Of a stretch of DNA of 32,051 bases, positions 10,291-31,500 are shown piece by piece (positions within the stretch are counted from its first letter, which is position 1; every line of letters begins with the position of its first letter). This DNA comes from Podaxis mareebaensis (taxonomy: Eukaryota > Basidiomycota > Agaricomycetes > Agaricales > Agaricaceae), in contig JAEUWP010000423.1 in assembly GCA_018524725.1 (NCBI GenBank), positions 1 to 32,051 of the forward strand, read 5' to 3'. The position numbers were made by a program, and so were the translations under genes. The notes under the pieces are model-generated. The model searched no databases. It saw only the letters and a list, made by a program, of their open reading frames with translations, and was not told the DNA's origin.

Positions 10291-10410
10291 CCTCCCAAAA
10301 AAATCCCTGGGGTTGAAGGGACCTTTGGGGAGTGCCCAAACGCACTCAAGGGCAGCCTCAAGATGCTAGGCTACTGGGGGGAGGCAGGGAGTGCCTGTGT
10401 AGTGAAGCAA

Positions 10411-10513
10411 CCCATATACTGGGTTATGCAAAAAAATGTAAGGCCTTGGGCCTCACAGAAGGGTGTTGAGAGTCTTAGATCATTGTGCCCAAGTGCATAA
10501 CCAGTTATATAGG
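10411..10513. repeat. Imperfect inverted repeat / possible short MITE-like hairpin
   Basis: The left arm (CCCATATACTGGGTTATGCA at 10411-10430) is complementary to the right arm (TGCATAACCAGTTATATAGG at 10494-10513) with one extra base and few mismatches, separated by about 63 nt. The loop contains further partial complements (CCTTGGGC / GCCCAAG). It could be the terminus or the whole of a small non-autonomous element, or a foldable RNA. I cannot assign it. Confidence 0.5.
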
Positions 10514-10938
10514 TGCTGGCTATACAAACACAGGGCGAGTTGACAAAAATAAAGACCTAAAGAAAGAAAGAAAGCTACGAAAATGATGGCTACCTACAAG
10601 TCCATCACAAATGTGAGAAAACCTGACCTAAGCATTCCTACAGAGTCTTTGTCAAGGGCCTCAGGCTTATAGGGTGATACCCAACTAACATTGCAGCCAG
10701 GAACTATCTATGAAATCTAATATCTATCTACTGAAGAATAAACAGGTTTGGGCATTACTAATTAATAGAATTGTAAGAAGTAAGGACAACTATGAAAGTC
10801 TATCCAGGTCAGTAGTAGAAAATCCTTATGAATTTGGACAGTATCAGTAGCTTTGGGTCAAGCCCTGAACCTGGATCACTACACCAGACAAACTGCCCTA
10901 ATATTCAGGGTGGACTACAATTCCTATTGATCTGCTTC
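10514..10938. other. No recognised feature
   Basis: Low-CpG sequence with a short GAAA-type simple repeat near 10560-10572. No coding frame, rRNA or transposon terminus was recognised. Confidence 0.5.
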
Positions 10939-11355
10939 AATAGATACAGCTTCACAATGAACATCTGATAAGTGGGTAAGCTCACAAATCATTCCTGACT
11001 ATAATCTAACCTTGTTAGATTTCTACTGACCTTTTAATTGATTGGACTATTAATCTGACTATGATCTTTTAGATCCTTCTAGACTCTATTGAGCCCTAAT
11101 TGGCTCTGCTGACAGATTGTCTACCCTTAGGATGGACTCTATTGAATACTGACTTATTTTAATAAATATAGCTATACATTGACCTTCTAGTAAGTGGGTA
11201 AGCCCACAAATTTCTCCTGACCTCAATCTAATACTGTTAGATCTCCACTGATATACTAACTGACTGTTTTACTAATCTGATTATAATTATTCAGATACAT
11301 CTAGATCTTGTCTAGCCCTAAGTGTTCTACTGACAATCAGGTAATCCTGACTCCA
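10939..11355 (+). repeat. Two tandem copies of a ~222-bp unit
   Basis: Unit 1 starts at 10939 (AATAGATACAGC) and unit 2 at 11161 (AATAAATATAGC). Both carry AAGTGGGTAAGC(T/C)CACAAAT, the GTTAGAT..CCACTGA-like segment and an AGCCCTAA block in the same order. Divergence is considerable, largely transitions and small indels. It lies upstream of LINE copy C, so it might be part of that element's promoter region, but this is only positional inference. Confidence 0.6.
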
Positions 11356-11604
11356 CTAATGACTGATAAAGTACAGTAAAACAATACTAACCTCCCCTCA
11401 GATCTCATCCTAGTTTTTACTTAACTATCCCAACCAGCAAACTGTCCTCAGGTAAAATCTACTAATCCATTAGATATACTTTGGTAGTCTACATTCTATA
11501 CTACTACATACAATATATAAAATGTCTCAACTCTCCTATTGAACCTCTCCACCAAATATTATACAGTAGAATAATGATATTACAATAGAAACCACTAACT
11601 TATC
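11356..11604. other. No recognised feature
   Basis: AT-rich sequence between the tandem duplication and the start of similarity shared by LINE copies A and C. It could be additional 5' UTR of LINE C, since copy A is interrupted by an LTR at exactly this point. Nothing else was seen. Confidence 0.4.
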
Positions 11605-11956
11605 CTCCCTGCATCTACTGTAGACTCTGAATGCTAGACTCCAAAAGTAAGCTACCTTTTAACTGACCATTCTACAGACACAACTAAAAAACACTCCCTG
11701 TAAAATCTAGATAAGTAATACCTACCACTCTCACATTTTTATGTCATCTAACCACCTTAAACCCCTACAGAAATCTGAAGAACTAGCATATAATATTGAC
11801 TGAGTAACTCTAATACCCTGATAGACTTATAAACACTAATCTAAAATTAGAACAATATCAGACTTGTAATAAATACTAAATCTATAAGATCTCTATAGAA
11901 ATAAAAGGCCTAAAAACTGAACTCAGTCAAAAGAATGGTAACTGGATAAGTATAAA

Positions 11957-13437
11957 AAGCCTGACTCTCTAGTAAGATTCTCTAATACTGCACACTATAG
12001 CTAAAAGCACTCTCACTCCTGCTCCCACTCTATCTGACCTTTTAGACTGCAAGCAAAAAGACTACTCAGAGCCAGTCTCTGACAGTGACTAACTACTTGC
12101 TACTCTGACTAACACTAGCAGTCAATCCAAGAAAAAAGAGGATAAGAAGAAGCAAAGGCTATTAGATATAGAGATAGACAATTCACTAGTACTCTTCTTT
12201 GACTTTCTGACTCTATCTGCCACTAACAGCCTGACAAGTAAGCCTCTAAAATCCAAAGAAATATATAAGCTAACAATATTTACTAGTCAACCCTATCCAG
12301 TCTGTCCTTAATAAAGCATTCACTAACAATGAGTCAACTGATATAAGCAAGATCAATAAGGATCCCAAGTCTGCTTCTATTAATAAAACCCCTAACCTCT
12401 CAGAAAATGGTATGTAACACTCCCTAGCTAAAACCCACTGATTAACTAACTCTATTAAAGATTGGGACATCTAGGTCAATTCTATAGTAGACAACTCTGG
12501 TAACAAGTGGACTCTACTTGAGGACAAGTCCCTCAAGCCAAAATTCCACATGACTATGAACTTCTATCCTGCCAAGTAGGGCAATAACAAAAACTTCAAG
12601 ACCAATCTCTTGACTTTCTTTATGAATGACTATAAAATAAGTACTTTCTGAGAACCACTCCACTCTATTACTGAAATTTTAAAGTTCAAGCTGCTTATGG
12701 CATATGCTAGTGCTACCAAGACTTAAGAGAAGAAGAATGCTATAATCACAGCTGTCAATGCCCTACTAGATAATAAAGTAGTCAAGAAAGAAGATATCAA
12801 AGAGATATATCCTGAGTCACCATGGTATATAGTTAATATCTATAGTTGGGAGGCAGTCAAAGAGTTAGAAGAGATAGGAGCTGCATATACCTTAAGTAAA
12901 GGTGATCTTGTTACCTTCCATAGTCTGACCACTAGTCACTCCCTCCATGTCACTCTTCATATGAAGGTCTTAGCAAACTGAAACACATTATAGTCTAGCA
13001 TCAAAGTCTGAGATACTTTACAGTCCATCTAGGACAATACTATTACTATTAGAATAGCCTAACTTCATTCTTTCAAATACTTTACTATCATAGACTTCTG
13101 TCATAAGCTTTCCCCTTTCATCCCCAGCTCCTATCATCTTGACTCTTTCTCTAAATTCAAAATCCACTTTGCCTATGACTACAAAATCTACCACTCTTAT
13201 GACCACCCTACTGGAGACTGCTGCTTCAATAAACTAAGGAAGATCTAGAACATGGGATTAGGTGAAGCAGTCCAAGGAACTGCTCTCAGTGAAAAGAAGC
13301 TAGTCTATATATGTTTGAGCCTATACCTCTTCCACTTATCTATAGCTCACATTGTTTACCACTTTCTGTCCTTACTCATAACTAATATATCACACCCCAC
13401 TCTCTGTTCTGAATCAACTAATAAGCCTATATCTTAA
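11957..13437 (+). pseudogene. LINE copy C ORF1 relic
   Basis: This is homologous to the copy A frame at 6036-6992. The start codon seen in A (ATG) is AAG here. It includes a basic Lys/Gln tract near 12130-12155, an Ile/Leu/Lys-rich region with several stops, then a part not present in A (12911-13437) with several aromatic and His/Cys residues (DHPTGDCCF near 13203-13229), ending at TAA 13435-13437. No canonical zinc knuckle or RRM signature could be confirmed. The role (RNA-binding LINE ORF1 protein) is inferred only from its position before ORF2. Confidence 0.5.
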
Positions 13438-13802
13438 TATAAGTCAGCTAACTTTGAGATCACCTAACTAAAGACTACTTGAAAGAAAGATGAGATAAAA
13501 ACAAATAAGCAAATGAAAAATAAATTCAATAAATATCAATGATAACTAAGTCCAACTCCAACCTTCACATAAGGAAACAACTATAAGTGACACTACATTG
13601 ATAAAGAACCATAACCCTACAAGTACACTATTAACTCTATTCTAATAGTCACCTTTAAAAGAAACTAGAAACAACCATCTCAACCCTTATAACTCATACT
13701 TAACAAGAATCAAAGAACAATTATAAAGGACTCAATAAAGCCTGAAAGAGTAATCATACCTTAAAAACAATAACCCCCTCAACCCAAATAGCTACATCTC
13801 AA
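13438..13802 (+). other. Inter-ORF region and possible first codons of LINE ORF2
   Basis: AT-rich with no long frame. A Lys-rich frame with stops continues from ORF1, and the last ~35 bases read NNPLNPNSYISI, like the beginning of an endonuclease domain, before similarity switches to the Tc1-like transposase at about 13803. Confidence 0.35.
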
Positions 13803-13806
13803 TATC

Positions 13807-14579
13807 ATGCCATTAGACTATACAGTGAGCAAGATATTAGTCCCATCTCAGACTGTCAGAAGACACTTGAAGAAGGCAGGTCTCAAAGCTGTAGTGAAGA
13901 AGAAAAAGCTTTTTCTTAGTGCTAGGCATAGGAGGGAAGGAATGGACTTTGCTTTAGTACACCAGCATTGGACCCTAGAGGACTGGAAAAAGGTTATATG
14001 GTCTGATGAGACTAAGATCAATAGGTTGGGGTCAGATGGTAGGAAGCAGGAATGGAAAAGGCCAGGAGAGGGCCTTAGTGATAGGCTGATAGAGGGAATA
14101 GTCAAGTTTGGAGGAGATCACTCATGATTTGGAGCTGCATGTTGTGGAATGGAACTAGGTTTGCAACCAAGATTGATGGGAAAATAGATGATAACCTCTA
14201 TATGAACATTCTGGAAGATGAACTTGGGAGGACTGTGGAGTGGCATGGGCTGGAGAAGGATGAAATGATTTTTCAACAGGATAATAACCCCAAGTACAAG
14301 AGCAAAAAAGCTACAGCCCAGTTTCAGGAAAACCAACTCAAGGTTCTTCCATGGCCAGCACAGTCTTTATACCTCAATCCCATTGAACACTTATGGAATT
14401 ACCTCAAGAAAAAACTAGGAAAGTATAAATCTCTATCCAGGAGAATAAATAAACTGTGGGAGAGGGTGTAGGACTAGTGGAATGACATACTAGCTTCTGA
14501 GTGTCAGAAGTTGATTGAAAGTATGCCTAGGAGGAGAGAGGCAGTAATAAGGGCTAATGGAAGATACACCAAGTACTAG
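13807..14579 (+). pseudogene. Tc1-like DD34E transposase, frameshifted
   Basis: The frame from 13807 carries the end of the HTH region (SQTVRRHLKKAGL), then VIWSDETKI with the first catalytic Asp near 14007. A one-base deletion in the Gly-rich segment near 14115-14120 shifts the frame; the second frame (from 14124) has IWSCMLWNG, FQQDNNPK with the second Asp near 14280, and LNPIEHLW with Glu near 14385. The spacing of 34 residues between the second Asp and Glu defines DD34E of the Tc1 branch. Two TAG stops (14469-14471 and just after, at Gln/Lys positions) precede the typical C-terminus ending GRYTKY at 14579. It catalyses cut-and-paste transposition when intact; here it is inactive because of truncation, frameshift and stops. 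CpG decay is milder than in neighbouring LINEs. Confidence 0.9.
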
Positions 14580-14608
14580 CTATACCCTTGTATGTATGTA
14601 TTAGAATA

Positions 14609-14820
14609 TTGGCAACAAAACTGTTCCAATGAGTAATATTGACCCAATAATTGATATTAAATCAGGCTAAATTAATTACATAATAAAACTTGATGGGATC
14701 AAAGTTAAGAAACTAGGCTATTCTCAGAAATATTTTGGAGGTAGTCACCTTAACCAGTTCAGAGATATTGTAATTTCTTTCTAAAAGTTCCAAACATTGG
14801 AACAGTTTTGTTGCTCACTG
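14609..14820. repeat. Inverted repeat pair at the Tc1 3' end (possible ~210-bp MITE)
   Basis: TTGGCAACAAAACTGTTCCA begins at 14609 and its reverse complement (CATTGGAACAGTTTTGTTGC) occupies 14795-14814, ending with CTCACTG at 14820 and TA beyond. The right arm is the transposon terminus. The left arm, only 30 bases after the transposase stop, could be a sub-terminal repeat or the left end of a nested non-autonomous derivative. Confidence 0.7.
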
Positions 14821-14879
14821 TAACACCAAACCCATCATACTCAAAGCTAAAATGGACAAATTGACCAATATCTCATACT

Positions 14880-15720
14880 CTTCACAACCCAGAAGAAAAA
14901 GACATATAGCTCCAGGCAATTATAGAGCATATAGTTACAAACTGGAGCTAACAAACCAACTAATAATAACCCACACCCTTTATAATCAAAACCAAAAGAA
15001 CATATAGAACTATATATCATAGTATATATAACTATAAATAAAAGCAGGTAAACCAACTATTAATAAATCTCACCCCCCATAACCAAGAAAACAAAAACAC
15101 TCAAACCCATACATTATTGATCATATACTCACAAGCTAAAGCTGACAAATCTATAGACTATATCTCAGAACTACTATAACTAAGATCAAAAAGTCATAAA
15201 AATCCACATACTATAGAACATATACCCACAAGCTGGAGTGAACCAACTAACAAACAATAACCCAGATTTACTACAATCAAGATTGAAAACTATATAAACC
15301 TATACATCTCAGAATATATCATCACAAGCTGGAGTAGACAAATCAACTACTAACAACTCATATCCCTCATACCCAAGACAACAACTCAGACCCAATATAA
15401 CCAAGATTGAAGAACTACATAAACCCATGCAATATAGAATGTATATCCACAAGCTAGAGGTAATGAACCAACCATTAACCCACAACCCATTCATCCTAGA
15501 ACATATATTCATAAGATGGAGTTAACAAACTAATAGACTATAATCTAGACCCACTATAACTAAGATCAAAAAGTTATATAAACCTATACACCATAAAATA
15601 TATACTCACAAGCTGGAGGGAATAAACCAACTAATAACAAATAACAACCCTATAACCAAGATTAAAAAGACACTTAAACCCATACACCTTAGAATATATA
15701 CTTACAAGATAGAGTTAATA
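14880..15720 (+). repeat. Degenerate tandem array, ~96-bp period
   Basis: The motif ATAT(A/C)(C/T)xCACAAGCTGGAG recurs at about 14934, 15130, 15228, 15324, 15449, 15511, 15608 and 15704, mostly 94-98 bases apart or multiples. Units also share AACCAACTA, CCAAGATTxAAA and ACCTATACA(C/T)C segments. It is CpG-free and non-coding. The last unit runs into the 300-bp module, and one similar unit flanks the inverted module copy near 22325-22385. It could be intergenic-spacer subrepeats of rDNA or subterminal repeats of a transposon; neither is proven. Confidence 0.7.
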
Positions 15721-15966
15721 ATCTGGGAAGAAATTCCCAAACCTACCCACAAAGAGGAGTCCTACTCATAATTACATTATAGAAAGTCACAATAATATAT
15801 CAGAGTTTAGCACTGGCTGTTCTAGAACATAGAATAGTAACATTAGGATGAGAGTGCCATCTGCTGCATAGTACTTAAGGGCTTGCAGTATAAACATGAG
15901 TGTGGCAGGTGCCCATACCAACTCCTTAAGCCTGGGGCTGACTATGGGCCCTAGGCTCCAGGACCA
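15665..15966 (+). repeat. 300-bp module, left copy (inverted with respect to 22081-22385)
   Basis: It matches the reverse complement of 22081-22385 over its entire length with mainly transition differences. Shared landmarks are GGGAAGAAATTCCCA (15725-15739), GAGAGTGCCATCTGCTGCA and the TAGTCAGCCCCAGGCTTAAG region on the opposite strand. One strand keeps an open frame in both copies (minus strand here, plus strand in the other copy), but I recognise no protein. It does not resemble 28S, 5S or ITS as far as I can tell. Here its inner end joins 28S sequence at about 15966, with CCTGGTCC present on both sides of the join. Confidence 0.75.
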
Positions 15967-16455
15967 GGAAACTAGGGTCCCATTGCAAAAGTGAGGCTGA
16001 TTCCCAGCCAACATGACTGACTTCAAGCATTTTCCTTTCAGCAATTTCATGTACTGTTTAACTCTCTTTCCAAAGTTCTTTTCATCTTTCCCTCATGGTA
16101 CTTGTTTGCTATTAGTCTCTTGCCAATATTTAGCTTTAGATGGAATTTACCACCCATTTTGAGCTGTATTCCCAAACAACTTGACTCTTTGAGAGCATAC
16201 CACAAAGCCCTGGTGGTCCATATCAGAGACAGGATTCTCACCCTCTATGACACCCCATTCTAGGGGACTTGTACACAGTCCAGCATGGGTAACACTTCTC
16301 TAGATTACAACTCGGACAGCCAGAGACCACCAGATTTTAAATTTGAGCTTTTCCCACTTCACTCACAGCTACTAGGGGAATCCTTGTTAGTTTCTTTTCC
16401 TCTACTTATTGATATGCTTAAGTTCAGTGGGTAGTCCTACCTGATTTGAGGTCAA
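15967..16455 (-). rRNA. 28S rRNA 5' fragment (D1 and start of D2), mutated relic
   Basis: On the minus strand it begins at the canonical TTGACCTCAAATCAGGTAGG (about 16455), passes AACTTAAGCATATCAATAAG, the D1 region and AAAGATGAAAAGAACTTTGGAAAGAG, and fades in D2 near CTTGAAGTCAGTCATGTTGG. Normal CpGs are replaced by TpG or CpA; one survives near 16313 (CTCGGAC). It stops after about 490 nt of a molecule that is normally over 3 kb, where the 300-bp module starts. Confidence 0.9.
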
Positions 16456-16681
16456 AATGTTCAGAGATTGTCCCCTGCAAGGATGATTAGCAGCTGAACA
16501 GACAGAGAGCAGCCCCACAGCATAGATAGTTATCACACCTGTGATGGACTGCAAACAGTTCTGCTAATGTATTTCAGAGGAGCCAACCTTGGTTTACAAA
16601 GGCTGGCATAGACCCCCATGTCCAAGCCCTGAACACCAGCTTCAAAAAACTGGAGTGAACTGGAGTGGAGTTGAGAATTTA
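16456..16681 (-). other. ITS2 relic
   Basis: It lies between 5.8S and 28S on the minus strand. It has the Agaricomycete pattern GGCTTGGAxxTGGGGGTCT, GGCTCCTCTGAAATxCATTAGC, and TGTGATAACTATCTATGC, which supports a mushroom-class host. It is also CpG-depleted. Confidence 0.85.
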
Positions 16682-16836
16682 ATGACACTCAAACAGGCAT
16701 GCTCCTCAGAATACCAAGGAGTGTAAGATGTGTTTAAAGATTCAATGATTCACTGAATTCTGCAATTCACATTACTTATCACATTTCACTGCATTCTTCA
16801 TCGATGTGAGAGCCAAGAGATCCATTGCTGAAAGTT
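16682..16836 (-). rRNA. 5.8S rRNA relic, near full length
   Basis: On the minus strand it runs from AACTTTCAGCAATGGATCTC (normally AACAACGG) through GCTCTCACATCGATGAAGAA to GCATGCCTGTTTGAGTGTCAT, about 155 nt, close to the usual 157-158. The CpGs of AACGG, TCGCATC, ACGCAGCG and TTGAACGC are changed to TG or CA, so base pairing with 28S would be impaired. It is therefore a relic, not a working gene. Confidence 0.95.
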
Positions 16837-17140
16837 GTATTACAAGTTCTATAGGCATGAGAGGCCTATCGAATAACATTCTACAACATGCTACTGTAGT
16901 GTATGAAACAACATAGACCTCTGGGGGAGAGGTCACAAGGCTGCCACTTGAAGGGAGTAGCAGCACTTTCACACAGCACCCCTCACATCCATGAAGAGGC
17001 CAGAGAGAACCCCTTCTTCAATAGTCAGCCCTGCTATCAACCCCCAGAGACTACAAAGGGTGCACAGGTGGATGAATAAAGTCAAGACAGGTGTGCACAT
17101 TGCTCTGGAGAGCCAGCTACAGCCCATCAAGTATATTCAA
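16837..17140 (-). other. ITS1 relic
   Basis: It lies between 18S and 5.8S on the minus strand, about 304 nt. Its beginning matches the ITS1 fragment at 9280-9328, which shows the two rDNA pieces come from the same kind of unit. Confidence 0.85.
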
Positions 17141-17930
17141 TAATGATCCTTCCACAGGTTCACCTACAGAAACCTTGTTATGACTTTTACTTCTTCTAAA
17201 TGACTAAGTTTGATCAGCTTCTCAGCAATAGAGTGTGGTTGCCCACTCCCCAAAGCCAATCTGGAGACCTCACTAAGCCATTCAATTAGTAGTAGCAACA
17301 GGTGGTGTGTACAAAGGGCAGGGACATAATCAACATGAGCTAATGACTCATGCTTACTAGGCATTCCTTGTTGAAGAGCAATAATTGCAATGCTCTATCC
17401 CCAGCACAACAGAGTTTCACAAGATTACCCAGACCTTCTAGCCAAGGTGAGAAACTCACTGGCTCTGTCAGTGTAGTGCACATGTGGCCCAGAATATCTA
17501 AGGGCATCACAGACTTGTTATTGCCTCAAACTTCTGTCAGCTAGACACTGACAGTCCCTCTAAGAAGCCAGCCTGGCTATTTAGCAGGTTAAGGTCTCAT
17601 TCATTATCAGAATTAACCAGACAAATCACTCCACCAACTAAGAATGGCCATGCACCACCACCTATAAAATCATGAAAGAGCTATCAATTTGTCAATCCTA
17701 GTTATATCTGGACCTGGTGAGTTTCCCCATGTTGAGTCAAATTAAGCCACAGACTCCATACCTAGTGGTGCCCTTCTATCAATTCCTTTAAGTTTCAGCC
17801 TTGCAACCATACTCCCCCCAGAACCCAAAGACTTTGATTTCTTGTAAGGTGCCAAGCAACACATCAAATTTGAGGTCACCTAATCCCTAGTTGGCATAGT
17901 TTACTGTTAAGACTACAACGGTATCTGATC
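17141..17930 (-). rRNA. 18S rRNA 3' fragment, mutated relic (copy B)
   Basis: On the minus strand it starts at GATCAGATACCGTTGTAGTC (17930; normal GATCAGATACCGTCGTAGTC) and runs to GGATCATTA (17141), about 790 nt. Only one CpG-containing site (AACGG at about 17918 on the plus strand) is obvious. It shares with copy A (8692-9279) the loss of a short V8 segment before GCTTCTTAGAGGGAC, but CpG changes differ between copies, e.g. a normal ACGCGCGC site reads ATGCATAT in A and ATGTGCAC in B. Its 5' edge is a poly(A)-tailed LINE. Confidence 0.95.
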
Positions 17931-17943
17931 TTTTTTTTTTTTT
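17931..17943 (-). other. Poly(A) tail of LINE copy B
   Basis: Thirteen consecutive T on the plus strand, then C and TTTT, directly next to GATC of 18S rDNA. It marks the 3' end of the element and fixes the insertion site in 18S. Confidence 0.85.
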
Positions 17944-18183
17944 CTTTTCAGTAGGGGAAAATTGGCTTTTACCAACTACCCAGGAACCTGTCCACTTGCC
18001 CATAAGGTTCTAGAGTGTGGGATTGGGCTTTGTCACCACCTGACCCACTAAAAACCCCCCTGCACCACCTGCATTAGCAGTGTACACCCTGTGGTGTCTA
18101 TGGAAGTCATTGGGCTTCCACAGGTCCAAGTGAATTGCTTCACTCCTATTTCCTCTGGGCAGGACCAGTATGAGAGAGACCCT

Positions 18184-21100
18184 CTACAGTGTAACCTTCA
18201 ATAAGTTTTGACTGATTATTTCTATAATGGTGTCTTTAGTTGTCCATTTATTCATGAATTCCTTTGTTAGTTTGGTTTTCTTTTTGAAGTCAGGCTGTCT
18301 GTTGATTGTTCTCCATTCAATTTCAATGTCTTTGGTCATTAATTCCTTCCATTGTCTTATTATTATGCATTTCTTAAGGGAGGAGTTTTCACTGAAGATT
18401 CTGCTGTTTCTAGCCTTCTATATGAACCAGGTGGTCTCTGCTACAATTTCTTTATATTTATTATTAGTTGCTTTTATTGCTTGTTTCCTACTTTTTAGAA
18501 GTTTGATGGCTCCTAGAGACATGATTAATCCATTATCTGGTTCTATCCAGTTAGTGTCTGGAGTTGTTTTCTCCCAAAGTCTCTTTACTTCTTCCCATAT
18601 ATTAGAGCAATGGTTCTCAGGGCAATTTAGGAGGATATGGTCTATTGTTTTTAGTTCTCCACATTTGCACATTGCTTTGTCTTCCCAGCCAGGGATATTC
18701 AGGAACCATGGTCCAACTTTTAGTCTATTATGGAGCATTTTCCATGCAAAGTCTCAGAATTTCATAGGTAAGGGGTCTTTGTTAAGGTATTCCCAAATAG
18801 TTTCTTCTCTCAGCTGTAGGCCAGTTTTTGATTTATGGGCATTAATGGCTTTTCTTAGGTTTGATCTTGTTGTATGAGTTCCTAGTGTTATGTTCCTTGA
18901 TCTTATTATAAGGGAATATGCAGATTTTTGTGTAAGGTTGTTTAGGTGGGCTCCTTCAAGTCAATATTGTCTAGGGATGTGTTTAGTCTCAGTAGGAGTT
19001 GTATTTAGTTTAAGAAGTGATTGTTTTAATGCATTGATTTCTTGTTTTTCAGGGCCATCTGATGCTACTTTTATTTCAATTGTGCCTTCATGGGATCTGA
19101 TTGTATATGCTAGGGTTTTTAGCTCTTTACTCATATTGCTGTCTACAAAGTCTAGGTCTTCCCATTCACTGAGCTTTTTACAGGCAATTTTTGAGGCAAG
19201 GGGCATATCATTAATTACTTTAATGTTTCCTTTAAATTCAAATGCTTTGGTGAGTGCTATTATGTTTGCCTGGTCTTTGTTTTTAGGGTTGCTGGTAGAT
19301 AGTGCTATTGTTTCACTTGTATTTTCTGAGGTGTTTTTCAGTCCAATTTTAAATGTTGAGATGCCATTTGGTAACATAGTCCTTATAGTTGTGACTAGGA
19401 TTGTTGTTTTTCTAGTGTTGACTGGTCTTGGTATTCTTTTGATGGGTGTAGTTGTTAGATTGTTCTTTTTAGTCTTCCTATCTTTGTATCGGGGGTATGA
19501 TCCAAATATCTGAATTGCTTTCCCTGGGGTCACCATTTCTATGGATCTTGGGTTTATAAGTACCAGTTCTTGCTCTGGATTGGTTTTCTGATATTTCTGT
19601 ATTCTAGTTGGGGTGTGGTCTAGGTTGTCATTTAAGAAGAGAATAGTGGGGTTCAGTTTTTCAGGGATCTTTCCTATTAGAATTTTGGCCATATTTACAC
19701 ATCTTTTGTTATGTGGGCATGAGTTGTCACCTTCATTTTCATAGAATTGTTTGACTTGTCCTACTGTTGTGCATTTATGATGTTCTCTGAGACATCTTGC
19801 TGCTTTCTTGTTCCAAGAATAGTGGTTGTTTACTGCTATGTGATACCAGATTAGAAAGTTTTCTTGGATTTCAGATAGGACTCTTAGGGCATCATATCCT
19901 ACTTTATATTTTCATCCAGTTTTTATCATGTTTTTTATATAGTTAGGTACTGTGTTGAGTTTTGCCTCAGATTTATTCCATGATTGAAATATCCAGCTTA
20001 TTCTACTAGGGCCTTCTATTCTTAGTTGCTTTTGTATATTGAGGAATAGGATTTGGTCTGTTACAAAAGCCCAGGTAGGTCATTTACTTTTAGGTAGGAG
20101 AAATTTGTGGAGCCACATAAGGGATATTGCTTCAATTCTTGCTTTAATGTCTAGTATACCTAGCCCTCCTTTTTTTCTTGGTTGAGTGATGTCTTCCCAT
20201 TTCATTAGAGCTTTACAGCCTCTCCAGAGGTACTCTCTCATCATTTTTTCCATTTTTTCCTGGATGTCTTTAGGCATGCCATTAACTGTTGCTAGATAGA
20301 GGGCTCTAGATTGTATCAAAGCTTTTAGGATAAGTTCATCTCCTTTTGTTGAGAGGTTCATTGATTTCCAGTGATTTAGGATTTCTTGTTGTCTTTTAAG
20401 TATAGATTCCCATTGGGGGTATTGATTGGTCTTATTTCCTACCCAGGCTCCTAATGTTCTCATGGATTCTTCCTCCTTTATTATTTTGATTCCTTGTTCT
20501 ATTTTTCCTGATGGTAGGAGGTTTACTTGATGAGTGGTTTCTATTTTTGTTCTGTAGGTTTTGTTACCCATGGGGAGGATTTCAGTCTTGTCTAAATTGA
20601 ACTTTGCTGTTGATGCTCTGCAAAAATCATTGATTATTTTCTGAAGAATAGAGAGGTCATCAGTTTCTGTCATGTAGACAAGGGTATCATTGGCAAATAG
20701 GGAGGCAAGTACTTTTTCAGTGGTTCCAGGAATTTCTATTCCTTTAAGGGAGGATTTTCGGATGGCTATTGCTAGTGGTTCTATAGCTATATCATATAGT
20801 AGGCATGACATGGGGCAGCCTTGTCTGACTCCTCTTTTGATATTTATTGCTTCTGGTAAAGTTCCATTAACCATCACTATTGTATGGGCTTTGTTGTATA
20901 GTTGTCTGACTCTGTATATGAATTTTTGGGGGAATCCAAATTTTTCAAGGACTTTCCATAGGTAGTCATGTGCTATCTTATCATATGCTTTCTCTTGGTC
21001 TAGCACCATTATGTATCCATTTGTATCTGTTATATCACAGTAGTCTATGATAGTTTGGGATAGTCTTGTGTGGTCATATAGTCCTCTTCCTGGGATAAAG

Positions 21101-22070
21101 CCAGCTTGGTCAGGATGAATTATTTTGTGTGCAATGGCATTGGTGAGTGATTGGTCTATAGTTTTCTATTTTTGTGTTGTCTTTCTATTTTTGTGTTGTC
21201 TTTCTTTTTGTAGAGTAGGTGCATGACTCCTAGTATAAAGTCAGGGTTTTTTAGGCCTTTTTCCTCAATTTCATTATATACTAGGGTGAGCATAGCTATA
21301 ATATTGGGGTATCTTTCATGCTTTTTCTTTGGGTTGTCTTTTGACTTTGCTTTGTATTCTTCATATTTTTGTTTCCAAAACTTGTAGAATTCATAAGGGA
21401 TTCCATCTATTCCTGTAGCTATACTATTATCAGATTTTTTGAGTGCTATTAATACATCACATTCTGTTGTTGGTTTTTCCATTAGGTCACTATCCTCTTT
21501 GGAGAGTGTTATGTCAACTTGAGATAGGAAGGTGTTGATGTGTAGGGTGTCTTCTTCTGACCTTGTGGGTTCTGTTTGGAGTTTCCTATGATGATCTGAT
21601 GCTATTTTACTCATTTCTGAGGTTTTATGGATGATCTTGTTATTATAGTTCTTTAGGGCCATTATTATTGATGGGCTGGGTTTAGATCTGTTGAAGTTGA
21701 AAAAATATTTTGTGTTTTGTTCACCTTCCTTTCTGAATTTGGCTTTTGCTGAGAGTTGGGCACTATGTATGTTTTGGCTTTCTAGAGATTCTAGTTCCTC
21801 TATAACTTCTTTGAGTTCATTTCTATTGTCTAGGAGTTCTTGGTTGATTTTGCTGAGGATGAGGGCAAGTTTGGCTTTTTTATTGGTTTTATCTTTGTAG
21901 AGTTGTCTCTTCCTTTGTGTTATTTCTTCTCTACCAAGCTGTTTTATTATTTTCTTTGTTTGGATCCATATTTCTGTAGCACTAGTACCATCTTCCTCTG
22001 TTCTTTCCATTTTTTCTTCAGCTTCTAGTAAGATTTTTTGTGTTCTACAGATAAATGGCTGAAATTCTAT
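18184..22070 (-). pseudogene. LINE copy B ORF2 relic: RT, RNase H-like region, zf-RVT
   Basis: First part (22010-21156): Lys/Glu-rich linker, ATGIDGIPYEFYKFW (RT block 1-2) and LLYKKKDN. At 21165-21205 a ~20-bp tandem duplication and, just beyond, loss of about 60 bases present in copy A break the frame. Second part (21009-20080): LDQEKAYDKI (block A), GVRQGCPMSCLLYDIAIEPL (block B) and LFANDTLVY, where the catalytic second residue of the usual (Y/F)ADD is Asn, so RT would be inactive. Third part (19692-18961): resembles RNase H in its WED...LKTLAYTIRS pattern but lacks obvious catalytic acids. Fourth part (18738-18418): CKCG...HILLNC zinc motif (about 18620-18675), then a TAG and ARNSRIF, with the final stop at 18184-18186. 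Roughly 240 nt of 3' UTR follow. Confidence 0.85.
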
Positions 22071-22080
22071 GGTGTCTTTG

Positions 22081-22385
22081 GTCCTGGGGCCTAGGGCCTA
22101 TAGTCAGCCCCAGGCTTAAGGAGTTGGTGTGGGCATCTGCCACACTCATGTTTATACTGCAAGCCCTTAAGCACTCTGCAGCAGATGGCACTCTCATCCT
22201 GATGTTACTGTTCCATGTTCCAGAACAGCCAGTGCTAAACTCTGATGTATTGTTGTGACTTTCCATGATGTTGTTGTGAGTAGGACTCCTCCATGTGGGT
22301 GGTTTTGGGAATTTCTTCCCAGGTTGATAACTTTGTCTTGTGATTGTATATTCTGAGGTGTGTAAGTTTAGACATCTTTCTGATG
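22081..22385 (-). repeat. 300-bp module, right copy (inverted partner of 15665-15966)
   Basis: It is the reverse complement of the left copy, starting GGTCCTGGGGCCTAGG at 22080 and running to the CACAAG/ATATTCTGAGGTGT unit near 22370. It lies between LINE B and the 155-bp array. Together the two modules point inward and bracket the rDNA-LINE B block (15967-22077). Confidence 0.75.
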
Positions 22386-22439
22386 GTGTGACCAGCTTTA
22401 TTTTCAGTTCAGTTGTTTCTGATAGGTTCTTTATGCCCT

Positions 22440-23621
22440 ACATATCTAATCCATTGGGTCTGACCCATTGATAGTAAGTTCTTGCCTCAGTGTTATAGAG
22501 GAAAGGCTAATTCTGTCCATGAAGGTTTCTAGCATTGTGAGGTTAGCTTCTAGTAGTTGCTTTAAAGGTTATAAGTTATATCTCATGTTGATGTTACTTT
22601 TCATATACTGGGTCTAACTTATAGATGGTAGGTTTATGCCTCAGTTTTATAGAGGGGGGATTAGTTTTGTTTATGAGGGTTTCCAGCTCTGATGGGTTAA
22701 CATCCAAAGTTGCCTTAAAAGGTTAGAGGTTATATCTCATGCTGACAATGTATCTCATACACTGAGTCTGACCTGTTAGTAGTAGATTCATGTCTTAGTG
22801 CCCTAGAGAGAAGACTGTTTCTATCCATGAAGGTTCTCAGTGCTGAACAGGTTTATATTTGGGAGTTGTTGTATAAGGTCAGAAGTCATATTTCTTGTTA
22901 ACATTGCTTTTCAAACACCAGGTCTGGCCCATTGATATCAGGTTTATGCCTTAGTGTCATAGGAGGAGAACTGATTCTATCTATTGAGGTTCCTAGCAGT
23001 AAAGTTGATATCCTAAAGTTTCCTTATAAGGTTAAGGGTCATATCTCATGTTGACTTTGCTTCTCATACTTCAGGTTTGGCCTGTTGGTGGTTAGTTTAA
23101 TCTTCAGTGCCATAGGAGAGAGACTAGTTCTGTCCATGAAGGTTTCTAGTGCTGAGATGGTTTATATCTACAAGTTGCCTTATAAGGATAGAAGTCATAT
23201 CTTATGTCAATATTACATTCCAGAATCCAGGTTTGATTTATTGTTACTAGGTTCATGTTTTGGTATCATAGAAGTGTGACTGGTTCTATCTGTTAAGTTT
23301 CTCAGTACTGAATAAGTTAATATCTATAAGTTGCCTTATAAGGAGGGAAGTTGTATCTCATATTGATATTACATTTTAGACTTTAGGTTTGATTTATTGT
23401 TGTCAGGTTCATGTCTTAGTGTCATAGAGGTAGGACTGGTTCTATCCATTAAGGTTCTCAGCACTGGACAAGTCAATATCCATAAGTTGCCTTATTAGGA
23501 AAGAAGCTGTATCTCATGTTGATATTACATTTTAGACTCTAGGTATGATTTATTGTTAACAGGTTTATGTCTTGGTGTCATAGAAGGAGGACTGATTCTA
23601 TCTATTAAGGTTTCCAGCACT
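22440..23621. repeat. Eight-unit tandem array, ~155-bp period
   Basis: The landmark TGTCATAGA(G/A)G..GACTGGTTCTATCCAT recurs at about 22493, 22647, 22801, 22957, 23110, 23266, 23422 and 23578, spaced 153-156 bases. Each unit also has a GTTGCCTTATAAGG segment and CATATCTCATGTTGA. There is no open frame across units and no spacer/repeat alternation, so it is not CRISPR-like. The last unit is interrupted by the hAT terminus at about 23622. Function unknown; a period near a nucleosome repeat is compatible with heterochromatic satellite. Confidence 0.85.
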
Positions 23622-26600
23622 TAGTGTTGCCACAGCTCAGCTTGGCTCAGCTTGGCTCGATTCAGGCATGGCTTAGCTTCAGAAAGGCTCAGGAGCCATC
23701 AGGGAGCCAGACAGCCAGCTTGGCTCCAGCTGGCTAGCTGAAGAGCCACAATGAGCCAGGTATTTAAAACACCATATATATACTACTTGAACAAATCTTG
23801 GGCAATCATGGCTCAGGAAATGTTCAGTTTACTATGAAAGATCAACCAGGTGGAGCAGGAAATTTCCAGCTACCTCAGTTAGAAAATTAATGTTGACAAT
23901 GAAATGCTAATGAACTTCAAAGTGGCATTATGACAAGATTTCAGTGTGACAGTGATGGTAGCACATTGTAACACTATGGATCAAATTGCAAAGATTGTCA
24001 ATTAATATTGAATGTATTACAAAAGAGTGGCTATGGTATTAGAGCTGGAGTTTTAAGAGAATCCATGAAGCTTGTCACATCTTCAGGTACTTGACTCTCC
24101 TCCATTGTGAGTTCCATTAAGTGTGCATATTCCTCATTCTGGCTTAGTCCAGCTGTAAAGTTGAGTTTGTATCCATGGTTATATGAGTATTTAAGCATTT
24201 GTAAAGCTTCCATTAGCTCAGGAGTAATACAGTTCCATCAGAGTGTCATTGTTTCCTTTGCAGATAAGAATATTCTCTCACAGGGCACAGCTGAGCCTTG
24301 AATTGAAAGAATATTGAGTGCAAGGAGGAAGATGGTAGGATAATGGGAGTGATTTTCCTATGAGGTTGTATATAAGTGATATCTAGGAGGTGTTGAAAGT
24401 GAGCTTACCTGCCAGAATGTAAGACTGCTTGTTGACTGATAGGGATCAAGGAAATAAGATTCCACCTCAGTACATAAGTTGTGATCCTCAGGAGTCAACA
24501 GTGAAAGATTACAGAGGCTAAAGATAAGATTTGGATCATCATGGAAGTCAAAATCATTGTCTGTTGCTGATACCTGAGGCCCTCAAGTGCTCAGTTCCAT
24601 GAAATCATGATACTGTGAGAGCTAGAAAATTTAGGTTAGACTTCATAATATAATTAAAGCAGAAAAAGCATACATGAGTGATAGAAAGCTTACAGACTTC
24701 TTCTACTTCCCCTGGCATGTTTTCTCGAAACCAATTTAACTTCATAGCTGGGTTTATTACTAACCAATTATGAGTCAGAATAGGGTCTTAAGAATTTCAA
24801 TTGTTAGTCTTACATATTGACAATGTATATGCAGGCACCAAAGTCAGTTGATCATGATAATGTTGCAGCTTTTTGATGCCAGCCTGGATTGTTTCATAAT
24901 AATGACCCAGAGGGAGTTGTTCTTGTAGTTCTCACCATCTTGAGATCATTGCATTAAATGCAGGCATTGCTCCACATAGTGTCAGAGTTTTCTCAGCAGA
25001 GAGGACCTGCTGGAAAGCATGTGGAACCTAAGTGAGGTGTAATGTTGACTGTTAGACAACTATTATTTCAGATTAAAAAGACATCACATACAGCAAGAAT
25101 TTGTGCATAGCATTTTAAATCAACCCAGTCCTGTCACTGAAGACAGTATCATTGCAAGTCAGAAGCAAGGGTGAGATATCAGTCAATTGCCTACATAATA
25201 ATGAACTTGTGATTTAAAGAGTCATCTATTCAAAAATTACCTGCTGGAGCTTCAATGCTCATAAAATCATAAGGTAGGTGGAGGACCACCATGTATCTAC
25301 ATCTCGAATAAGTTCATGATCTTGTAGTCCTAGATGTCAACATGTATCTGCAAATGTGTCATGACATAGTGAGGATGATCAGATCTGTTTACCAATATCA
25401 GGGTCCTGCTTTATGAAGTCAGCACCTAGTCATACTTACCATGTGAATAGCAGACTGAAGTACTGCAATGACATCACGCTCTTGTTGCCCAGCACCAGTG
25501 GCTGGCACATAGTCATCAGCAGTTGTGCTTGCCCATCTGAGGTCAGTGACCTTGGATATTATAGCTTGACAGGCAAGGTTAACAATGTGTGGAAAACACC
25601 TGTACTAACCATTAGATGACATAACATGAAACAGAAGGTATCATCTCACCATATACACCTTTTGGCTGCATCAAATCCAGAAATCCCTCAGCTAGTGAGC
25701 TCTTCAGCAAGGGAAGTGATACAGGTGTCATTATTTGAGGCATTGTCAAGAGTGATCCATCCAATCTCATATCATGCATTCTAAGTATCTGAGATATCCA
25801 AATATAATCATATACTACTCACCTTCTGTGACATCTCAAGCTGATTGAGTAAATGCATGAGCATTTGTGCTAGGTGATCACCAGTATGTTGACCAGGAAT
25901 ACAGTGGAAACCAATCAAGTATGATCAGAGCTGGAGAATGGTGTGAGAGCCAGCAGGACCACTGACTTCTACTATATCAACACAGTGGGCAGTAACAGCC
26001 ATAAATGGTGAGAGGTTTTTGTCAGACCATAGATCCATGGTCAGTGAAATTCTTCCACCAGGACGCTGATATCACATTAGATAACCATTAATCAATAAAG
26101 ATACTATTGGTGTGAAGGAATGTGTGATGAGGGATATCTGAGTCTCAGAGGTCACTGTGCATAAGCAGGAGGAGAGATCAGAAGTGTACATTCTCCAGGA
26201 TGTTCATTGCCTGTTCAGATATCAATATAAGGTTCTGTTTACTGTGAATCTTACGCACCTGATCATCAGACACCACAAACTTAGTGATGGCAGCAGTAAA
26301 GTTTTCATGTGTAAAGGCCCAACAAGCTTGGGTACTCCCATCATTCACCTCAAGAGATTGGCCCATCTGTTGTTGATAATTGGCAACAACAGCCTGAGCT
26401 TCCTCACCATTGATCACCAGCTTCTTCTCATCACACTGTGTAACCCATTCCTTGAGGTGGTACCTGTAGAGATGTCATTGGAGAAGATTTGTCCCTGTTG
26501 ACCCAGAGTACTTGAGCACTGTGAAGTCAGGATCTTTCACAGCCTGTGTCCTACATGGGACACATCATTAATGGATTAGATAGTCATTAGATAAGAGCAC

Positions 26601-26790
26601 AAACATACTCACACATTACACAGAACCATTCCTTAGTTCATGAATTGGAGTGGAAGAATATCCAGACATCATCAGCTTTAGCCACCTTCTGTGAGACTGG
26701 CTGTTGTGGAGGTAAGTCAGGCTCTGGATCATTGTCATCATCATCGGACATTTCCTGGGCTGAATCTGGAGATCTGTCCTCTTTTGAGGG
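23622..26790 (-). mobile_element. hAT-superfamily DNA transposon, right part interrupted
   Basis: The terminus begins TAGTGTTGCCACAGC at 23622 within a satellite unit, followed by many copies of a GGCTC/GAGCC-type motif (23634-23760), typical of the sub-terminal transposase-binding clusters of hAT elements. The transposase gene lies on the minus strand. The opposite terminus is not visible before LINE D starts at about 26790, so it has been lost or displaced. Confidence 0.7.
24031..26751 (-). pseudogene. hAT transposase with BED-type zinc finger and several introns, broken
   Basis: ATG at 26751-26749 opens an acidic N-terminus (MSDDDDNDPEPDLPPQQ), then a BED-finger region (VWIFFHSNS, stop, TKEWFCVMC, and after an apparent intron SGSTGTNL...HLYRYH). 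Downstream lie WAFTHENFTAAITKFVVSDD (about 26310-26250), LTMDLWSDKNLSPFMAVTAH (26050-25990), LIGFHCIPGQHTGDHLAQ (25910-25855) and IGWITLDNASNNDT (25770-25730), all hallmark blocks of fungal hAT transposases, with the catalytic Asp residues in the LDNAS and DLWS blocks. The C-terminal dimerisation block includes YPTIFLLALNILSIQGSAV (near 24325) and ends at TAG 24031-24033. Candidate short introns (GTGAG...TAG or CAG) fall at about 25810-25835 and 25620-25660. Stops such as TGA near 26640 show it is dead. Confidence 0.85.
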
Positions 26791-26799
26791 TGTTCCTCA

Positions 26800-28520
26800 C
26801 CTCATCCGCATCTTACAAATTATCGCACATTCTGAGCAATTGTGCAACAAATCAGTCCCCTACAATGGACAACAACTCAAACTGTACAACTTTGTGTCTA
26901 TGCAGTTCCCCCCTTCTCATACCCTATCCCCCACTCCCACACCCATGTCTACTGGCCATCGTAACATATGTTGGGCTGAAAAAGCACTGGCTGTGTCTCC
27001 TCCTACCCCCAAGGATGCTGCTGGGACACCCCATAGCTCCTCCATTATTCCTCCTGACACCTCTGGGTTTCCCCAGGGCTCAGATATGCAATTCGAAAAA
27101 GACACAGCACGAGCAATTGCCCTCTCTCATCTCCCACCTCAAGATATGAACAAACCAGGTGAGCTGTCTGGTTTAAACAAAGATACTGAAATGCTTCCTC
27201 CCCCTCTCCCCTCCACTACCACTACTCCCAAAACTGCTCCTGGAGCCACAAGCTCTGGGAAAGGCAACACCCATCTTAGCTCATGGTTGGAAGTCACCCG
27301 CTGACAGGCACCTTGTAAGCCAATAGCCGCCCAAGCCCCACATAAGCCTATTGTCACTCCTGCTTTCCCCCCCCAGGCACCTAAACCCCCTCCCCTTCCC
27401 TCTTCTCCTCCCCCTATTAATTACAAGACCTGCCCCAGGTCTAATGCCCCATCACCGTCCACCCAGAGGTCATCTTATGCTAAGACCGCCTCTAACACCC
27501 CACTTAAAGCTGAGGAATTGCAGAAATATGCTACCCTCCAAAATCAATTCCCCCAGATGTCGCTGGTAGACATCATCAACTTCCTCCGCTCTTTGGGAGA
27601 TATTAAATCCAACTCCCTGACCCCATCCAAACCCTCCCCTCATTCCTCCAACTCACCCAAGGCCACCCAAGGCCCCTCTCACAAGAACATCATCGTTCCC
27701 TATAACAATGTTTTCAAACCTATCCACATCACCTCTCTCGACCTTGTTGTTAGGAATTGCAACAATGCCCTTTACCAAAAGGGGCTCCTACTCAAAGTCA
27801 AATCAGCCAAGTCCAATGACCAGACTCTTTGGCTGTCCACCAATCAAGTAGCCACCGATGAGGAACTTCTCATCATTAAAAAAGGCATTACAAACTCAAA
27901 CAGGTCTGCCTTTGCCACCCCCGAAATTAGGGACGCCATCGTTCCCTCCCTTCCCATGTCCAAATTGTTCATCAAATTGATGAACCTCCCTTACTTCCAC
28001 CCTGACAGTACCCCACATACCTCTGATGATTTCAAAGAAGTCATCGATTCCTCACCTTATCATGAGATAAGCCAACATCTTGTCAGTAAGCTGCACTTCC
28101 ACCAGGTTTCCCCCCATTCGGATTCTGCCATCCTCTTCTTTGACCTCTGGGATTCTCAATCCACGACAAGGGCAAAACTCCTCATTAACCACACCCTCTT
28201 ATTTGAAAATTGAGTCTGCACCTTCCATGGTGCTTCTATGCGAACTGCTTCTCCTCTCTGAAACAGGTGCTGGAGGTGGGGCCACCCTACACACCTATGT
28301 AGAGCTCACAATCCCAGATGCACAATATGCGGAGACCCCCATCACACTGACAATCACTGCCATGACGGATTCTGCTGCCACAGCAAACCTGGACCTAACC
28401 CCCACCTCCCCACCCCTGCCAACATCACGGAGTGTCCCCACGTGACCTCCTTCCAATGCCTCTCATGCGATTCCAAGGACCATCACATGAATTCTGACAA
28501 ATGCCCTTTCTTCTGCCACT
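26800..28520 (+). pseudogene. LINE D ORF1 (Gag-like) with CCHC zinc knuckles
   Basis: One frame can be followed throughout. A Pro/Ser/Thr-rich N-terminal half is interrupted by TGA at 27302-27304; an ordered central segment follows (27518-28213, with VDIINFLRSLGDI, a Gag-like DEELLIIKKGITNSNRSAFA region), then TGA at 28211-28213 and 28259-28261. Next come knuckles: CWRWGHPTHLC (28268-28300, whose first Cys has become the stop at 28259), CTICGDPHHTDNHC (28319-28360, perfect CX2CX4HX4C) and CLSCDSKDHHMNSDKC (about 28460-28505). It ends at TGA 28518-28520. The protein would bind LINE RNA. The start codon is not certain; the open frame upstream of about 26790 belongs to antisense hAT sequence. 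Confidence 0.8.
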
Positions 28521-28523
28521 GAT

Positions 28524-31500
28524 TTGATCAGGAGTGGATTACCTCTAAACTTCGCGAACTTAAGTCCAAGAAGAATTGACGCGACTTCAACTCAGGTGCT
28601 GTTAATGTCTAAAGGACCCCTTAACCGCCCTGCTCCTTCTTCCATTTCTTCTATTCCTATCATTTTCTTCAACATTCATTGCTCTTCCTCTCTCGTTGAA
28701 CTTCTCCTTAACGACCCTCTTTTTAAAGACATCCTTGTCCTATGTATTCAAGAACCCCCTTTCAACATTATCCACAATATTCCCTCTATGACCGACTCTG
28801 AAGGAGTCCCCTACAAAGGCATGCTGTATAACCCAAATTGGCATATCTTCTTGTCGGATGAAGATCATCCCAGAACAGCCACCTTCATCCGATGTTCATG
28901 CGATGTACTCCTACCAACTTCTCACCCAAACATTATTTCTTCCCCTGACTTTCAACTTATCTCATTATCTTTCCCAAGAAAGGTTTTCTTTCTTAACTGT
29001 TATCTTGACCCTTCTAACAATAGCTCTCTTTCATTGTTGGAAGAACACTCTCACCTCCTACCTAAAAATCTTGTATGCACCAGAGGAGATTTTAATTCCC
29101 ACTCTCCAGAATGGGACCCTCACATTACTCACCATACCACGCAAGGAGATCTACTAACTGACATCATGAACTCCCTAGGCCTCTCTCTTTCCACACCATC
29201 ACAGGATAAGTACATGCACATTCCCTATGATGGTAATAAACACCCATCTGTTATTGACCTTATTTTCATGATAGACAAGGCTACCCAAAGCCCAGTCCAT
29301 CAAATCTGTGACGATTGGCAATTCACTTCAGATCACCGACCACTCCTCACCTCCCTTCCTACCCCCTCCCCCTTCCAACCCTTCATAGAGAAACTTACTG
29401 TTCCAAAGGATTCCGAGGAAGAAGCCACCTTCCTCTACTCTGTTGGCATTTGTCTTCAGGCCATTCCACCCACCTTCAACTCAGCTGAAGACGTACACTT
29501 GTATGCTCAAGCCATTTCTCAAATTATCACTCAAGAATGGCAACGCAATGCCAAACTCATCAAAATCTGCACTCGGTCCAAGCCATGGTGGAACCCAGCA
29601 TGCTCCTCCACCCTTAGAGCTTTCCAATTCCACAAGTCCAAAGCAAATTGGGCTAAATTCCAATGCACTACCTGCACTGCCAAGCGCCAATTCTTTGATA
29701 AGAAAATTAGAGATATAGCTGAGGAAGACTGCCGTCCCTGGGATTTAATGTCCTGGATTGGCAAATGCAACCTCCCCTCCTCCCAATCCATCACTTTCAA
29801 TGGGAAGAGTTGTGACGAGCTAGAGGACCTCTGGCATGCTCTCAACTCTTCCTATAACTCTGCCTCTGAGTGTCCCATGGACTTAGATGCCATCAATTCT
29901 TTTGACACTCACCCAGAACGCCTGTGGCTGCCATTTTCTAAGGCCAAACTATTTGATGCCCTTAACCCCTGCGCTAATGCTTCTGCCCCAGGTCCTGATC
30001 ATCTCTCGTGGGCCCACATTAAACATATCATGTCCAATGATATCTTCCTTTCCAACTTCCTCACATTCACTTCAAAATGCATCGAATTTTCCACCTGGCT
30101 GGAACACTTCAAAAATTCCACTTCTGTCATCATCCCCAAACTGAACAAACCCCACTATTCTACCCTGAAAATGTTCCACCCCATAGTCCTTCTCAACATG
30201 CTAGGCAAGCTGATCGAGAAGATGATTTCCACCTGAATGCAATTCGAAGCATCTCAATTTGACCTCATTCACCCCCTCCAATTCGGAGGAATTATCCAAT
30301 GCTCTACCAAAGATGCTGGCGTCTACGTCACCCACCTGGTTCGATTGGGTTGGAAACATAAACTCAAGACTAGCATCATCACCTTCGACATAGCACAGTT
30401 TTTCCCTTCCACTAACCATGAAATCCTCACCTCCACTCTTCACTGCCAAGGCTTCAATTCTTGACTTGTTTCTTTCTTTTCTGATTATTTAAGTAATCGC
30501 TTCACTACTTATTCTTGGAACAATAACTTGTCTCCAAAATTTTCTGCTTCTGTTGGTGTTGGCCAAGGATCTGCTCTTTCCCCCATTCTTACAGCTCTGT
30601 CTCTTTCCCCTTTTATGTACAAATTCTCCAATGACCCTCATTGTAAAATAATCTCTTTCGTTGATGACGGACTCATTGTAGCTCAATCAGACTCATTTTC
30701 TACTAACTGCTGCCTCCTTTCACAGGTCTACAAAAACTGTGAAGAATACCTCTGCTGCCTTGGATTTGTCCTCAAAAGAGACAAAACTGAGGCCTTCCAC
30801 TTCTCCAACCACTCCTCCCAGGAACCCAATCCCCCTGTCGTCATCAATGACTCCCTCATCATTCAACCCAAACCCTTCCTCTGCTACCTTGGCTTCTGGT
30901 TCGACAGAAGCCTCTCCTTCAAGGAACACGTCTGCTTTTACTCCACCAAAGCACTTTCCACCATCCGATGCATGCACATGCTCAGCAACTCTATCCGTGG
31001 CCTATCTCCCCTCCACAAGAGGCTTTTATATCGATCCTGTGTTGTCCCCATAGCAACATATGGATTCTGTCTCTGGTTCAATCGCAACATGAGATACCAC
31101 AGACTCATCAAGTCCCTCCAATGCATGCAATGCCAAGCCACTTTATGGATTACTGGCGCATTCTGTACTACCCCCACAGGTGGAGTTGAAGCCATCACAG
31201 GCCTCATCCCTATTCAACTCCACCTCTTCAAACTCATGAAATGATGCTCTCTTCATTTCCACACCCTTCCCCCTTCCCATCCCCTTAAACTCCTCACATG
31301 CGACATCAACCCCTTAGACGTGTGTCAAACCAAGCAGTGCTCAACAGTGCTCAACTTTATTTCACATGCCCAGTTGGTCACAGACTGATTTTAATGTCTC
31401 CATCCCAGTGCCAAACCTGGCCAGCACCTGCTGGACTTATTTAGCGATCAAATTAAATTCTTTGAATGCCCTGACCCTTCAAAAGAAGGTGCCATGGCAC

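Follow-up and report, generated by a model that had tools for sequence, protein, structure and literature searches.

The long interspersed nuclear elements (LINEs) with which the element described here is best compared include R7Ag, which comes from a mosquito, R8 of Hydra (R8Hm) and the Tx1 clade, which stands near L1. According to the available passages of the papers cited throughout, the LINEs named as targeting ribosomal RNA (rRNA) genes are from animals (PMC5035012, PMC7265360, PMC3636483): R7Ag is an 18S-specific LINE of the R1 clade with a poly(A) tail (PMC7265360), R8Hm is an 18S-specific LINE within the R2 lineage (PMC5035012, PMC3636483), and no R2 had been found in a host other than an animal (PMC5035012). 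The majority of target-specific LINE families belong to a few groups, namely Tx1, R1 and the early-branched LINEs (PMC4640811). A search of titles and abstract openings and of passages of texts, with subscription literature mostly outside its reach, returned no fungal LINE in 18S; by that search, 18S-specific LINEs are described only in animals (R7 and R8). Here, we analyzed a stretch of 32,051 nucleotides from Podaxis mareebaensis (hereafter the window; contig C393, JAEUWP010000423.1, of a 36.95-Mb assembly of 429 contigs). It holds three copies (A, B and C) of a LINE family; two more, C62 and C208, lie outside it, and this count of five is a lower bound. We consider it likely that this is a degenerate L1-group LINE family of an agaricomycete, with an apurinic/apyrimidinic endonuclease (APE)-type enzyme, which prefers one 18S site, GAAGAC^GATCAGATACC, and enters it by target-primed reverse transcription; as a site-preferring element the LINE is probable rather than proven.

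The junction on which this reading turns is the 3′ end of copy B. On the minus strand, copy B ends in ...TTTTCCCCTACTGAAAAG-A13 (17943-17931) and 18S GATCAGATACCGTTGTAGTCTTAAC (from 17930) is directly next to it; the very next base after the terminus ...CCCCTACTGAAAAG-A13 opens 18S GATCAGATACCGTTGTAGTC. The first-pass annotation of the window had the A13 tail ending exactly at 18S; direct reading bears this out, and the motif A7GATYAGATACC turned up once in the 36.95-Mb assembly, at this junction. That the A-tail marks the genuine 3′ terminus of the LINE is shown by the C208 copy, whose colinearity reaches an identical point in the 3′ untranslated region (UTR) and which has an A-run there too. 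The insertion point lies between positions 1005 and 1006 of the SSU_rRNA_eukarya model (Rfam), a position that we take to be the 790 loop of 18S. Copy B and the ribosomal DNA (rDNA) next to it comprise:

17931..23621, minus strand: LINE copy B, with the 3′ UTR and A13 at 17931, open reading frame 2 (ORF2) with reverse transcriptase (RT), the ORF2 N-terminal part and 156-bp tandem repeats; 3′ end common to C208, 5′ part colinear with C62
17931..17943, minus strand: A13 tail of copy B, abutting 18S without a gap
17920..17930, minus strand: GATCAGATACC, the 18S target and putative 11-bp target-site duplication, with its partner copy at C62:6303-6293, minus strand
17141..17930, minus strand: 3′ part of the 18S rRNA gene, CpG-depleted, downstream of LINE B (Rfam)
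15983..17140, minus strand: internal transcribed spacer 1 (ITS1), 5.8S (16683-16836), ITS2 and the 5′ end of 28S, joined without a break to the 18S part (Rfam)
20083..21165, minus strand: longest open piece of ORF2, reverse transcriptase (RVT_1; Pfam)
18421..18753, minus strand: zf-RVT-like zinc-binding C-terminal piece of ORF2, under the curated Pfam cut-off

The second exact junction, which provides the strongest of the new evidence, is on contig C62 (15,948 bp, same assembly), which carries on its minus strand a LINE copy 94-95% identical to B that retains the endonuclease region; from the 5′ UTR this copy continues through an ORF1-like part and 156-bp repeats spanning about 2 kb into ORF2 with the endonuclease, and the contig edge cuts ORF2 near the start of the RT region. 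At its 5′ end the copy meets 18S ...GATCGAAAATGATCAGATACC, at the very nucleotide of 18S where the B junction lies. The 18S 5′ half on C62, near-complete except for 15 model positions missing near its 5′ end, begins TACCTGGTTGATCC and ends ...GGGGATCGAAAATGATCAGATACC, and the LINE 5′ end, CTGAGGGCAGG, comes directly after. More than one copy has an exact junction at one rDNA nucleotide (B at its 3′ end, C62 at its 5′ end), as in R-elements. In A, B and C62 alike, the LINE runs in the direction of the 18S gene. The B junction precedes GATCAGATACC and the C62 junction follows it; taken together, they are most naturally explained by an 11-bp target-site duplication of this sequence, assembled from two copies rather than read on one.

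The LINE comprises an ORF1-like part, 156-bp repeats (present in C62 and B) and an ORF2 encoding an apparently APE-type endonuclease, an L1-like RT, an RNase H-like region and a zinc-knuckle-like end. In the proposed mechanism, the endonuclease would nick the bottom strand immediately 5′ of GATC, the poly(A) RNA would be reverse transcribed from the nick, and a cut in the top strand 11 nt downstream would produce the 11-bp duplication. Some copies inserted elsewhere, and those outside the active array would then have undergone CpG loss, stops, deletions and rearrangement. The junctions, the orientation, the target nucleotide common to B and C62 and the decay are observed; we infer the order of nicking, targeting by way of the endonuclease and repeated independent insertion at the site.

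Copy A lies, as the first-pass annotation had it, immediately upstream of 18S sequence, runs in the same direction and is joined to it through a deletion; the join has lost the 3′ half of the LINE and roughly the first 206 bases of the 18S segment. The features on the other strand are:

5685..8687, plus strand: LINE copy A, with the ORF1-like part at 5685-6992 and endonuclease and RT joined from 6992; 3′ half deleted, and a long terminal repeat (LTR)-like repeat interrupting the 5′ side
8696..9326, plus strand: 3′ part of 18S and the start of ITS1, downstream of copy A
10623..15982, plus strand: LINE copy C, with its 5′ end at about 10623, the ORF1-like part to 13486 and the ORF2 N-terminal part at 15661-15982

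Copies A and B differ in the LINE by 130 transitions and 22 transversions over 1019 bases, a count that leaves out a poorly aligned stretch (39 transversions in 1087 bases with it included), and in their rDNA flanks by 61 transitions and 1 transversion over 631 bases; the contrast gives Fisher p=3e-4 for transversions and 0.06 for transitions, the latter being inflated by CpG-type decay. In the ORF1 alignment (1141 columns), pairwise transversions number 17 for A-C, 29 for A-C62 and 38 for C-C62, and odd-one-out transversions 23 for C62, 9 for C and 2 for A. Over the ORF2 N-terminal part (291 columns) no transversion separates B from C62 and 6 separate C from either, with 6, 0 and 0 odd-one-out transversions for C, B and C62, and at the RT start (326 columns) the pairwise counts are 4 (A-B), 3 (A-C62) and 1 (B-C62), with 3, 1 and 0 odd-one-out transversions for A, B and C62. 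Assuming roughly even rates, these counts suggest two apparent LINE lineages, {A,C} and {B,C62}. Since 18S linkage occurs in both, a single recently duplicated locus is disfavoured and appears an unlikely source of that linkage. The first-pass annotation had offered, as one of two possibilities, a single insertion into an rDNA unit that was later duplicated; the linkage in both lineages and the 22/1019 versus 1/631 contrast speak against this, and what survives of it is that B and C62 could be one event. A broader form of the idea, in which a LINE without target preference made one chance insertion in 18S and the unit was copied in the rDNA and then dispersed, so that B, C62 and perhaps A are one event, seems to us possible but rather unlikely. 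It would fit the closeness of B and C62 (9 transversions in 1872 compared bases), the location of C208 and C outside rDNA, and the rearranged rDNA fragments in the window contig; it is opposed by A-B transversions some 13-fold higher in the LINE than in the rDNA flanks and by an ORF1 in which A is nearer to the non-rDNA copy C than to C62. This opposition would be softened if constraint or gene conversion, which could have kept the 18S parts of A and B alike, had held them together, or if recombination had linked A to 18S.

Several observations weigh against a preference for the 18S site. The tabulation of flanks proposed by the first-pass annotation divides evenly: of the four copies with readable ends, B and C62 are at the 18S site, and C208 and C are outside rDNA, copy A having no readable end; the confinement of all or nearly all copies to rDNA that marks an R-element is thus not seen. 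The C208 copy (1849 aligned bases, 5′-truncated, with an A-run at its end) is flanked by its own duplication, TCCCTCAATCTT or up to four bases longer (12-16 bp, the A-tail making the limit ambiguous); no rRNA match was found in the 9.3 kb around it (Rfam), and its site agrees with the 18S site at 11/40 positions at the chosen nick and at best 13/40 over nine offsets, against a background mean of 10. The 5′ end of copy C (about 10623), where the last 20 or so bases of homology are gapped, lies in CpG-normal, non-rDNA sequence without an rRNA match; its 5′ flank bears a weak likeness to the C62 18S flank in register (14/26, reached by 0.2% of 8164 background positions) and to 18S in general (12/26, 1.7% of background). 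The two 18S junctions are never seen on a single copy, the same insertion may have given rise to B as well as C62, and the lineage grouping depends on roughly even rates. LINE A could have been joined to 18S by recombination, its junction being deleted and the exact 18S site lost. Searches of the 429-contig draft assembly found no normal rDNA unit, and this, together with several rearranged joins in the window (LINE C to 28S at 15982, ITS1 to CpG-rich DNA at 9326), fits an account in which the LINE-18S links are false assembly joins or the result of post-insertion recombination. We regard that account as very unlikely: both junctions fall at LINE ends (the A-tail and the 5′ end), in two contigs and at the same 18S base, with the 11-bp overlap expected of a target-site duplication. 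Of the earlier suggestion that the family targets 18S, a preference is upheld by the second copy, C62, at the same nucleotide, by the 11-bp duplication and by 18S linkage in two apparent lineages; strict specificity is given up, as C208 and C are outside rDNA.

The proteins place the family. The RT of copy B matches RVT_1 at 2.5e-27 (Pfam) and, by phmmer, human L1 ORF2 at 7e-37 (query residues 12-346) and R2 at 3e-19; it is L1-like by this match rather than by a tree, in a comparison in which 11 distinct sequences matched, none named R1 or Tad. The C62 translation contains QETK, GDFN, SRIDR and SDH, which we take to be APE endonuclease motifs. Pfam matches to endonuclease domains are weak and below cut-off (Exo_endo_phos_2, E=0.0062; Exo_endo_phos, E=0.03), and PF03372 is carried by many relatives among the RT-search matches listed. 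That search found 1259 proteins, of which 120 were listed; the best of these is 51% identical across 99% of the query, and five of the 120 have organism names (Lentinula edodes, Panaeolus cyanescens and Rhodofomes roseus), all agaricomycetes. RNase H appears in the Pfam listing of four of the seven aligned relatives (P0003, P0004, P0007 and P0071); this LINE gave no Pfam match to it, and on visual inspection the region seems degenerate, a feature shared with P0001 and P0002. Copy B has FAND where all seven relatives have FADD, and its ORF2 is broken by stops and a frameshift; the ORF2 frame has 1 stop in 506 codons in C62 and 4 in 586, its end included, in C208. None of the pattern matches in viral_contigs (94) or genome_contigs (37) was confirmed as a relative, and the junction A8GATYAGATACCG was not found in viral contigs. 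That the LINE belongs to the animal 18S family R7 or R8 and is present in a fungus would account for the shared target gene and, for R7Ag, the poly(A) tail (PMC7265360). We consider it extremely improbable: R8 lies within the R2 lineage (PMC5035012), whereas here the L1 match is far stronger than that to R2, in a comparison made without R7 or R1 sequences, and APE-type motifs stand N-terminal to the RT (no separate search for a restriction-like endonuclease was made); the organism-named RT matches, all agaricomycete, also argue against an animal family.

Four segments of the window (5685-6992, 11605-13486, 15661-15982 and 22079-23621) look like separate repeats, and by C62 all are parts of one LINE. 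Because C62 places them in one element, copy B extends to about 23621 with an internal deletion at 22078/22079, in which the endonuclease was lost; the end at 22077 given by the first-pass annotation has to be moved accordingly. Two assignments were rejected on the same comparison: 5685-6992 and 11605-13486 as a separate element, since in C62 both precede the repeats within one LINE, and repeat "X" (22079-22384 and 15661-15966) as 28S D2 or a satellite, which C62 shows to be the ORF2 N-terminal part. The 156-bp repeats, at L014:1560-3500 on the minus strand (the C62 copy, between the ORF1-like part and ORF2) and at 22443-23621 of the window, were also rejected as coding: the unit length is divisible by three, yet all six frames contain many stops. 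The ORF1-like part and ORF2 of copy C are separated by a DDE transposon (about 13790-14830), with a DDE_3 transposase piece at 14085-14468 (E=4e-8), and by an array at 14837-15660, with a spacing of mostly about 97 bases, where C62 has its 156-bp repeats; the array showed no clear match to these (best hit 56 bases, E=0.001). Copy C is broken inside the ORF2 N-terminal part against antisense 28S at 15982/15983, a rearrangement and not an insertion end. On the 5′ side of copy A, a 1.2-kb repeat occurs twice within 1-5685 (79-1317 and 4441-5685) and frames an LTR-retrotransposon-like block, parts of which match C208.

All five LINE copies are CpG-depleted and broken. The ratio of observed to expected CpG is 0-0.28 in the measured LINE and rDNA stretches and 0.85-0.94 in three host stretches; the 3′ flank of C208 has 0.27. 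Within the decayed window contig, 9327-10620, which separates the ITS1 downstream of copy A from the start of copy C, is a CpG-normal island (0.88 over 9327-10560). The colinearity of LINE B with C62 stops at 23621, at a sequence that begins near AGTGTTGCCACAGCTC; the segment there (23621-26650) is by its look a possible hAT-type insertion. A second, different LINE occupies 26800-31800 (Exo_endo_phos_2, 6e-14; RVT_1, 8e-9); its open frames are longer than those of the 18S-linked LINE, and it has retained more CpG. The gene adjoining the C62 rDNA has its closest matches among agaricomycete proteins; of those with an organism name, the nearest is from Leucoagaricus gongylophorus (87%).

Set against described systems, we lean slightly towards regarding the family as an 18S-site-preferring L1-group LINE of mushroom-forming fungi, an R-element outside animals whose 18S targeting would have evolved independently of R7 and R8 and which would live in, and escape from, the fungal rDNA array. 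If so, a fungal L1-type LINE aimed at 18S would mean that rDNA targeting had arisen separately in hosts whose genomes are small and whose repeats undergo CpG-directed decay, and the idea of the rDNA array as a LINE shelter from repeat silencing would become directly testable. Fungal-type LINE proteins (P0001 and others) have an ORF2 colinear with that of this LINE and were recovered as proteins alone, without insertion sites. As far as the available passages describe it, R7Ag is likewise a poly(A)-tailed LINE in 18S rDNA (PMC7265360); its animal host and R1 clade set it apart from the L1-like RT found here, by description rather than by comparison of sequences or exact sites. R8Hm also lies in 18S rDNA (PMC5035012, PMC3636483), but belongs to the R2 lineage and has a restriction-like endonuclease (PMC4640811), in contrast to the APE-type motifs and L1-like RT of this LINE. 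The Tx1 clade, compared by description, holds site-specific APE-type LINEs (PMC4640811), features that the proposed reading of this LINE would share in part. In its mixed pattern of a specific rDNA site and other genome sites, the family resembles what the accessible descriptions report for Pokey of Daphnia, which differs in being a DNA transposon of an animal host.

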